A model generated the notes under the pieces. The model was not told where the DNA came from. It ran no database searches and saw only the letters and a program-made list of their open reading frames with translations. A stretch of DNA of 33,580 bases from Comamonas sp. lk (lineage in GTDB: Bacteria > Pseudomonadota > Gammaproteobacteria > Burkholderiales > Burkholderiaceae_C), in the NCBI GenBank assembly GCA_945861345.1, contig CAMATX010000022.1, positions 1 through 33,580 of the forward strand. The letters are read 5' to 3'. The translations under genes and the position numbers were made by a program. This document shows positions 27,779 through 29,744 of this stretch, piece by piece; the first letter of the stretch is position 1, and every line of letters begins with the position of its first letter.

Positions 27779-28480
27779 ATGCAACCATCAGACGAGGACG
27801 TTGGAACCCCGGTTTCCGTCAAAATTCGAGAGCGTATCGCTGCCGCACGCAAGCGTTTTAACGCCAATGACAATATCGCTGACTTCATTGAGCCGGGCGA
27901 GTTGGCGGCCTTGCTCGACGAGGTGGAAGTCAAAATGCGCGGCGTGCTCGACAGCCTGGTGATTGACACCGATAACGACCACAACACCGCTAACACGGCA
28001 CGTCGGGTCGCCAAGATGTACCTCAATGAGGTGTTCCGTGGCCGTTACGTGGCGGCCCCGCCCATTACCGAGTTCCCCAACGCCGAGCACCTCAACGAGC
28101 TGATGATCGTCGGTCCGATTACGGTGCGCAGCGCCTGTAGCCACCATTTTTGTCCGGTGATTGGCAGTATCTGGATCGGCGTGCTCCCCAATGAGCACAC
28201 CAATGTGATCGGCCTGAGCAAATACGCCCGCCTGGCCGAATGGGTCATGGGTCGCCCGCAAATCCAAGAAGAGGCAGTCGTCCAACTGGCCGACCTGATC
28301 CAGGAAAAAACCCAGCCCGATGGTCTGGCCATCGTGATGGAGGCCAGCCACTACTGCATGTCCTGGCGCGGCGTCAAAGACATGGACAGCAAAATGATCA
28401 ATTCGGTGATGCGCGGCGTCTTCCTGAAAGACCCCAATTTGCGCCGCGAGTTTTTGTCCCTCATTCCCAAGAAAGGCTGA
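27779..28480 (+). CDS. folE: GTP cyclohydrolase I
   Basis: FolE converts GTP to 7,8-dihydroneopterin triphosphate and formate, the entry to folate (and other pterin) synthesis. From the ATG at 27779 it has 233 residues; a TTG upstream would add eight without similarity. The zinc ligands are present: Cys120 and His123 in SACSHHFCPV and Cys193 in SHYCMSWRGV, matching E. coli Cys110, His113 and Cys181. VIGLSKYARLAEWVMGRPQIQE and the C-terminal GVFLKDPNLRREFLSLI complete the signature. The enzyme is a toroidal decamer. It has no clear Shine-Dalgarno. A BLUF photoreceptor gene starts three bases after its stop. Confidence 0.96.
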   Translation: MQPSDEDVGTPVSVKIRERIAAARKRFNANDNIADFIEPGELAALLDEVEVKMRGVLDSLVIDTDNDHNTANTARRVAKMYLNEVFRGRYVAAPPITEFPNAEHLNELMIVGPITVRSACSHHFCPVIGSIWIGVLPNEHTNVIGLSKYARLAEWVMGRPQIQEEAVVQLADLIQEKTQPDGLAIVMEASHYCMSWRGVKDMDSKMINSVMRGVFLKDPNLRREFLSLIPKKG

Positions 28481-28483
28481 ACC

Positions 28484-28906
28484 ATGCTGGTCCGTTTGCT
28501 CTATGCCAGCCGTGCCGTCAACCCGGCGACCGCTCCGATTGAAGAAATCTTGGCCCAGTCCCGCCAAGGTAATCCCGGCCAGGGTATTACCGGCATTCTT
28601 TGCTATGGCGGTGGTATTTTTTTGCAGGCTATCGAAGGCGGGCGTAATGCGGTCAATGCGCTGTACAGCCACATCCAGCGCGATCCACGCCACAACGATG
28701 TGGTGCTGCTTTTGTATGAGGAAATCCGCGAGCGGCGCTTTAGCGGTTGGACCATGGGCCAGGTCAATATGTCCAAGCTCAATGCCAGTATCTTGCTCAA
28801 GTATTCCGAAACGCCCGAGTTTGATCCCTATAGCGTCTCGGGTGATGTCTCGCTGGCCCTGCTCGAAGAGCTGATGGCGACCGCTTCCATCATCGGCCGG
28901 GCCTAA
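28484..28906 (+). CDS. Short BLUF-domain blue-light photoreceptor
   Basis: A 140-residue stand-alone BLUF protein, which should bind FAD and switch on blue light. All key positions are present: Tyr7 (LLYASRA), Asn30 (SRQGNPGQGITG), Gln48 (FLQAIEG), and Trp89 and Met91 (FSGWTMGQ). Their spacing agrees with AppA Tyr21, Asn45, Gln63, Trp104, Met106 to within one residue. RDPRHNDVVLL and YEEIRERRF are also canonical. There is no output domain, only about 45 C-terminal residues forming probable helices, as in PixD and BlrB, so it must signal by protein contact. AGAAAGG seven bases before the ATG lies inside the folE end. Co-expression with folE is almost certain; a link in function is inference. 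Confidence 0.95.
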   Translation: MLVRLLYASRAVNPATAPIEEILAQSRQGNPGQGITGILCYGGGIFLQAIEGGRNAVNALYSHIQRDPRHNDVVLLLYEEIRERRFSGWTMGQVNMSKLNASILLKYSETPEFDPYSVSGDVSLALLEELMATASIIGRA

Positions 28907-28931: not shown

Positions 28932-29744
28932 ATGGTGCAACTGCTCGGTTGCGATTTTTCCAGCAGCCCCAATTCCCGCAAAAACATTGTCCTGGCCTGG
29001 GGCCACAGCGATGGCGCGCGCCTGCGCCTAGAACGTTTGGAGCGCTTTGCAGGCCTAGACGGCTTTTCACAGGCCTTGGCCCAAGAGCCCGCCTGGGTGG
29101 GTGGCTTTGACCTGCCCTTTGGCCTGCCGCGCGACTTGGTTCTGGCGCTGGGTTGGCCCCAAGACTGGCTGGCCTGTATGTCGCATTACTGCGCCCTGTC
29201 GCGCCCCCAGATCCGGGATGCATTTGCGGCTTTTTGCGATAGTCGGCCCGCCGGCTCCAAGTTTGCCCACCGCGCCACCGACATCCCGGCGCGCTCGAGC
29301 CCCTCGATGAAATGGGTGAACCCGCCGGTGGCCTACATGATGCACGCCGGTGTACCCCTGTTGTTGGCCCTGGACGCGCACTTTCCCGGCCTACAGGCTG
29401 CGCAGACGGGCGCTGCGCGCGTGGCACTGGAGGCCTACCCCGGCATGCTGGCGCGAGAGGTCTTGGGCAACCAAAGTTACAAGAGTGACGACAAAGCCAA
29501 ACAAGACAGCGCGCGGTTGATCGCGCGCAAAGACCTGGTCAATGCCTTGGAGCTGGGCCAAACCCGCTGGGGCTTGGCCCTCAAGCTCAGCCATGCCCAG
29601 CGCGAGGCGCTGGTCCACGATGCCAGTGGCGACGCCCTGGACGCCGTGCTCTGCCTGGTGCAAGCGGCGTGGGCGCAGCGCCAGGCGGGCTGGGGCCTGC
29701 CCGCGCAGGTGGACCCTTTGGAAGGGTGGATCGTGGGCGCCTAA
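28932..29744 (+). CDS. DUF429 family protein (RNase H-like fold)
   Basis: A 270-residue protein of the DUF429 group, whose fold resembles RNase H and is predicted to be a nuclease. Acidic residues sit where that fold needs them: GCDFSSSP at the N-terminus (Asp8), WVGGFDLPFGLP (about Asp57) and the C-terminal DASGDALDAVLCLVQAAWA. VALEAYPGMLAREVLG is also typical. No activity is established for such proteins. It begins 25 bases after the BLUF stop on the same strand, so it is likely the third gene of the folE unit, but nothing in its sequence ties it to light or pterins. Confidence 0.82.
   Translation: MVQLLGCDFSSSPNSRKNIVLAWGHSDGARLRLERLERFAGLDGFSQALAQEPAWVGGFDLPFGLPRDLVLALGWPQDWLACMSHYCALSRPQIRDAFAAFCDSRPAGSKFAHRATDIPARSSPSMKWVNPPVAYMMHAGVPLLLALDAHFPGLQAAQTGAARVALEAYPGMLAREVLGNQSYKSDDKAKQDSARLIARKDLVNALELGQTRWGLALKLSHAQREALVHDASGDALDAVLCLVQAAWAQRQAGWGLPAQVDPLEGWIVGA

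Follow-up and report, generated by a model that had tools for sequence, protein, structure and literature searches.

A conserved pairing of a divergent folE gene with a short BLUF gene suggests that light tunes pterin production

The window analysed here, a stretch of 33,580 nucleotides from a contig of Comamonas sp. lk, carries on its forward strand a folE gene (27779..28480; ATG at 27779, TGA at 28478-28480), which according to the open reading frame and Pfam encodes a GTP cyclohydrolase I of 233 aa that we assign below to a divergent subfamily. After a spacer of three bases (ACC) it is followed on the same strand by a short BLUF gene of the PixD type (28484..28906; ATG at 28484, stop at 28904-28906) encoding a protein of 140 aa. 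A putative ribosome-binding-site-like motif, AGAAAGG, was read on the forward strand at 28470..28476, within folE and 7 bases 5' of the BLUF ATG. Pfam recognised GTP_cyclohydroI (146 bits) in the first protein and BLUF (101 bits) in the second, and no domain besides these two in either of them. The next gene, identified with Pfam as DUF429 (28932..29744, forward strand), begins 25 bases past the BLUF stop, and a possible intrinsic terminator, a consensus match only, was localised at 28936..28953 of the forward strand, about 30 bases past the BLUF stop and within the start of the DUF429 gene. Seven terminator-like sites were counted between 27500 and 29900 (shuffled sequences gave a mean of 2.7, sd 1.6), no promoter-like site was found in this same interval, and an Rfam scan of the window gave no match at gathering scores.

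The genome from which the window comes (2.63 Mb in 129 contigs, 94% complete) gave a single match to PF01227 and a single match to PF04940, and a search for FolE2 (PF02649) in this 94% complete assembly gave none, so that its sole detected GTP cyclohydrolase I and its sole detected BLUF protein are encoded by neighbouring genes. Four matches were obtained when the same genome was searched for MerR regulators.

The window FolE is predicted to adopt the PF01227 fold with its zinc-binding and catalytic residues. Residues C120, H122, H123, S147, K148, R151, Q163, E164, H191, C193 and R197 were invariant in 33 aligned pairs, and we equate them with the residues that bind zinc and act in catalysis in the E. 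coli enzyme. The protein scored below the cut-offs of all four NCBI folE models that it matched (TIGR00063 and kin), with 147.5 bits for a cut-off of 181.6, 146.8 for 162, 144.9 for 202 and 129.9 for 174. In a tree of 172 FolE sequences, in which the canonical ones were reduced to 14 and every sixth of the named loci described below was used, a fully supported branch split 158 sequences, including the window FolE, from the 14 canonical ones. Both this tree and the BLUF tree presented below were built by a quick maximum-likelihood procedure and leave many forks unresolved, and the classes canonical, intermediate and divergent used throughout follow bit-score cut-offs of our own. Judged by scores and tree, the window FolE is not of the ordinary type and belongs to a separate divergent subfamily.

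The second protein contained a BLUF domain (PF04940, 101 bits) with Tyr7, Asn30, Gln48, Trp89 and Met91 all present in the translated reading frame, which we take to be the flavin-site residues of the BLUF literature. Tyr, Asn, Gln and Trp were kept in all 123 deduplicated paired BLUF proteins and Met in 120 of them. The comparison with the PixD structure 1x0p gave an E value of 2e-23, and the profile match to PixD structures spanned BLUF residues 1-131, the C-terminal part included, the protein being thus a short BLUF without output domain and with the C-terminal part of PixD. As this match is nearly full length, it is plausible that the window BLUF is a pentameric ring-former. A model of the BLUF protein alone showed a C-terminal helix, with low confidence (mean pLDDT 61.8, pTM 0.59, 11 sequences), and its low quality ruled out a fold search with it. 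A preliminary description of this DNA had claimed a complete short BLUF gene starting three bases after the folE stop, a ribosome binding site inside folE, an intact flavin site and the lack of an output domain, and had likened the protein to the ring-forming PixD type, while the divergence of the FolE had escaped it; the gene, its spacing, the residues and the single domain were confirmed by reading frames, translation and Pfam, the motif upstream of the BLUF ATG was found as a ribosome-binding-site-like stretch, and the assignment to the PixD type stood, with ring formation as a plausible property.

When 187 BLUF proteins were placed in a tree, one branch (SH-aLRT 98) separated 144 paired proteins, plus one, from 42 unpaired ones; every fourth named locus was used, the 43 unpaired proteins were those in the loci at hand, and the additional one, placed among the paired, is a BLUF for which only about 350 bases of contig lie upstream. 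In this tree the paired BLUFs are one clade. The mean distances in 72 four-gene loci were 0.13 for FolE, 0.18 for BLUF, 0.29 for DUF429 and 0.39 for ClsB, and selection appears to act strongly on the paired BLUF as a photosensor.

In an attempt to establish how widely the pair occurs, genomes were surveyed at three taxonomic levels. In the family of the window, BLUF was present in 264 and FolE in 286 of 299 genomes. Adjacency was evaluated there in the best 150 PF01227 rows only; four of them were canonical or odd types, none with BLUF, and 146 were divergent, with BLUF directly behind 136 of the divergent genes listed (68 according to coordinates and 68 on inspection of the remaining loci). 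In the order survey, in which all rows from 150 genomes were considered, 17 of 29 divergent FolE genes were paired, as against none of 25 canonical and none of 22 intermediate ones (Fisher p 1e-9), and the 17 paired genes were spread over nine families. At the level of the class, where adjacency was read by eye, FolE was found in 74 and BLUF in 28 of 185 genomes, and the pairs belonged to two members of the window's family and to one genome (G604) from another order, whose paired FolE was likewise divergent (149 bits). No BLUF was found behind any of 34 deduplicated canonical FolE loci.

Loci of Rhodoferax, Acidovorax, Curvibacter, Polaromonas, Limnohabitans, Diaphorobacter, Hydrogenophaga and relatives, referred to here as named loci, were fetched with the BLUF profile alone, and folE was found upstream (same strand, at most 700 bases) in 80 of 80, with a median of 8 and a maximum of 145 bases between the match ends; because these are the best 80 of 584 confirmed loci, they represent near relatives. 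The gap between the folE stop and the BLUF ATG had a median of 9 bases in 132 paired loci, and of 123 deduplicated loci, 87 had a folE-BLUF gap of no more than 15 bases and 115 one of no more than 60. The DUF429 probe matched the fetched flanks of 71 of the 80 named loci (best 80 of 584); among 122 deduplicated paired loci, for most of which about 1.5 kb of flank was available, it matched 31. The DUF429 gene is a neighbour in near relatives and lies outside the core pair.

Three of 160 matching plasmid records were inspected. The pair, with folE directly upstream of BLUF, lay on the two Cupriavidus megaplasmids among them, those of C. campinensis MJ1 (L342, 7166-8447) and of the cultured strain C. 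metallidurans CH34 (L343, 7054-8441). On the third, plasmid pH6NP1 of Polaromonas sp. H6N (L344, 3001-3420), the BLUF gene had no adjacent folE; its neighbours were an integrase gene on one side and, on the other, genes encoding an ATP-binding protein and a histidine kinase.

The turnover of the surroundings was evaluated in 75 paired loci with full flanks. At FolE identities of at least 95%, the upstream neighbour was common in 93% of 15 comparisons; at 70-80% identity a neighbour was common upstream in 3% and downstream in 13% of 571 comparisons, and below 70% identity there was no common flanking gene on either side in any of 402 comparisons, the pair itself being kept. Since these loci were selected as paired, the figures give the rate at which the flanks turn over, and the rate at which the pair breaks comes from the surveys. 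A survey of whether folE-BLUF adjacency is conserved and stronger than expected from gene-order drift had been proposed beforehand, with a lack of co-occurrence past close relatives as a refuting outcome; the order survey and the pair outside the order extended the adjacency far past close relatives, and the loss of all common flanks below 70% FolE identity set it apart from drift. As judged from these comparisons, the folE-BLUF pairing is old and selected, and the two genes are a conserved, putative light-pterin module.

The pairing has its exceptions. BLUF was missing from 24 of the 286 FolE-bearing family genomes, as tallied by hand, and divergent FolE was unpaired in 10 of 146 cases among the family rows listed and in 12 of 29 in the order survey, one of these 12 being a genome (G330) with folE and BLUF on two contig ends. 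The FolE tree called for some 10 linkage changes, a minimum of four being forced by well-supported branches. The enzyme, occurring without BLUF, can dispense with it, as would be expected if BLUF were a regulator. Eleven of the 13 family genomes without FolE were also without BLUF (Fisher p 8e-10); such a joint absence can arise through a single deletion or a single gap in the assembly.

In two genomes, G314 and G438, the pair was an extra copy alongside a canonical FolE. In G314 (L330, 7403-16199) the extra pair comes last in an operon-like row that also includes a CarH-like MerR/B12 regulator, DUF1295, fatty acid desaturase, amine oxidase and cyclopropane-synthase-like genes; the regulator had B12-binding domains and was CarH-like, but scored under the curated cut-off. 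This row looks like a light-stress lipid cluster. In G438 (L331, 6904-10803) a MerR regulator without B12 domain is followed by the extra pair and then by genes for a DCC1-like protein, a HiPIP and a short-chain dehydrogenase. Both clusters resemble the light-induced LitR regulon of Pseudomonas, which reportedly includes folE (PMC9758184). A general light cluster around the pair was considered and rejected: of 122 deduplicated loci, whose flanks mostly measured about 1.5 kb, none matched one MerR probe and 2 the other, 1 matched the CMAS probe, and none matched the desaturase or photolyase probes. Additional stretches fetched from G314 also gave no photolyase match. A third genome, G214, had a second, canonical FolE (L336, G214:C12) adjoining, by eye, an apparent metal ABC transporter and a Fur-type regulator, with its paired FolE elsewhere (L332).

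The supply of photolyase antenna cofactors had been suggested as a benefit of the pair, and this suggestion was not supported. The photolyase domain (PF03441) was present in 269 of 299 family genomes and absent from 24 of the 264 BLUF-bearing ones, 15 of which had a verified folE-BLUF pair, versus 6 of the 35 BLUF-less ones (the tallies of BLUF or photolyase absence were completed by hand). The comparison gave a Fisher p of 0.14, and the antenna was discarded, for want of support, as the reason for the pairing.

Signs of direct contact between the two proteins were sought in models and in sequence variation. A fused single-chain FolE-BLUF AlphaFold model (pLDDT 78.6, pTM 0.54) gave no confident placement of the one protein on the other, and Foldseek with this model returned GTP cyclohydrolases only among the 50 matches listed. 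The distance-matrix co-evolution test in 72 four-gene loci gave no signal beyond ancestry, the FolE-BLUF correlation (r 0.454) being the lowest of the six pairs and its partial correlation 0.066, versus 0.38 for FolE-ClsB and 0.07 for FolE-DUF429 (range of the six pairs, 0.03-0.53); the FolE-BLUF sets comprised 72 to 139 sequences, which is too shallow for paired coupling analysis. Eight FolE positions were altered where BLUF was gone, none of them beyond general divergence (L207 left out), and they are uninformative because the unpaired FolE proteins are partly older branches. Gene fusion was rejected as proof of interaction: 10 of 120 listed proteins looked fused, of which two (P0241 and P0244, each seen once) were, by eye, clean stop losses and the other eight carried frameshift-like stretches.

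Short BLUF proteins work through other proteins, and many have, to our knowledge, no known partner. A BLUF protein without output domain would signal by binding a partner, and the most economical candidate is the FolE made beside it. According to the order and spacing of the genes, folE and BLUF may be translated from one message, with some coupling between them. The BLUF protein, its flavin-site residues being intact, would bind FAD and switch on blue light; in its lit or dark form it would bind the FolE decamer and alter its activity or stability, and the flow from GTP to pterins and folate would then track light. That BLUF acts on FolE itself, setting the pterin flow by light, is a tentative reading to which we would give nearly an even chance. 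In its favour are the tie to one FolE clade, the tight spacing and the kept photosensor residues; the fused model, the co-evolution test, the lack of a convincing natural fusion and the repeated loss of BLUF weigh against it. A further guess is that a BLUF ring caps the five-fold face of FolE in the fashion of GFRP. The specific version, in which the ring-forming BLUF is a dedicated light-switchable subunit that caps or holds the decamer and sets pterin and folate synthesis without transcription, as a light-driven bacterial counterpart of GFRP, seems to us somewhat unlikely.

The two genes could instead be expressed together because FolE and a light response are wanted at the same time, the BLUF target lying elsewhere (a transcription factor, a c-di-GMP enzyme or another pterin enzyme). 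This is a serious possibility, well short of an even chance. Known short BLUFs are reported to have varied partners, such as PixD-PixE and BluF-BluR (PMC5899715) and BlsA-Fur (PMC5955987). Both extra pairs are in clusters with MerR-type regulators, the one in G314 with CarH-type B12-binding domains, and neither the fused model nor the co-evolution test signalled a contact. However, the most distant paired loci compared had no other neighbouring gene in common, which leaves no shared partner in sight close by, and the window genome keeps its one detected BLUF with folE and not with a regulator. The absence of a regulator gene conserved beside the pair in the compared flanks, together with the lack of a DNA-binding domain in the BLUF protein according to Pfam, also speaks against a feedback on expression, in which BLUF would control by light the transcription or translation of its own folE operon like an antirepressor; we regard this as improbable, although light is reported to act on folE through transcription in Pseudomonas, in the LitR regulon (PMC9758184).

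That the two genes are neighbours by history only, one hitch-hiking with the other and without any functional link, appears highly improbable. Several lineages in the FolE tree did retain FolE and drop BLUF, but the pair persists where the compared neighbours have changed, is linked to one FolE clade and to no canonical FolE, and occurs also outside the order (G604). Light acting on this step of pterin synthesis has a precedent in Pseudomonas mendocina, where folE is described as mildly light-inducible and shares its region with the gene of a short LOV sensor (PMC9758184). Taken as a whole, the pairing kept amid reshuffled surroundings suggests that light tunes pterin production.

With well over a hundred genomes showing the conserved pairing, among them many of freshwater and soil origin, a likely partner can be named for a BLUF protein, and this likely partner is a central enzyme and not a regulator. 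If the action were direct, contact between two proteins would let light control the first step towards folate and pterins, of which we found no description in the accessible parts of the literature searched; the two proteins would then make a candidate for optogenetic switching of an enzyme. With an indirect action, too, the module would imply that these bacteria benefit from a light-linked pterin supply.

A full-text search for BLUF together with GTP cyclohydrolase or folE, in a coverage that leaves out most subscription journals, found no report of the pair. The words cyclohydrolase and folate are absent from the available text of a 2014 survey of prokaryotic BLUF and LOV proteins (PMC4844311), as is the word light from that of a 2007 comparative study of folate genes (PMC1971073). 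FolE and BLUF proteins are each familiar; within the reach of our searches, what is new is that the pair is conserved, that it is linked to a single FolE subfamily, and what it probably means.

Three known systems offer a comparison. PixD is reported to form stacked pentamers (PMC5899715). The window BLUF shares with PixD (Slr1694, TePixD/Tll0078) the short BLUF without output domain and a sequence match over nearly the full length; PixD acts with the response regulator PixE in phototaxis, whereas the kept neighbour of the window BLUF is a metabolic enzyme and nothing resembling PixE was noticed next to it. The mammalian GCH1-GFRP system has an enzyme of the same family as the window FolE, and GFRP is, as we understand it, not a BLUF protein. 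GFRP is reported to be a small pentameric regulator that docks along the five-fold axis of the GTP cyclohydrolase decamer and works with phenylalanine and BH4 (PMC7750480). Finally, the LitR/short-LOV regulon of Pseudomonas with folM-folE-folX likewise links blue light to GTP cyclohydrolase I and has a photoreceptor gene in the folE region, but it differs in having LOV and not BLUF, MerR-type transcriptional control and another gene arrangement (PMC9758184).
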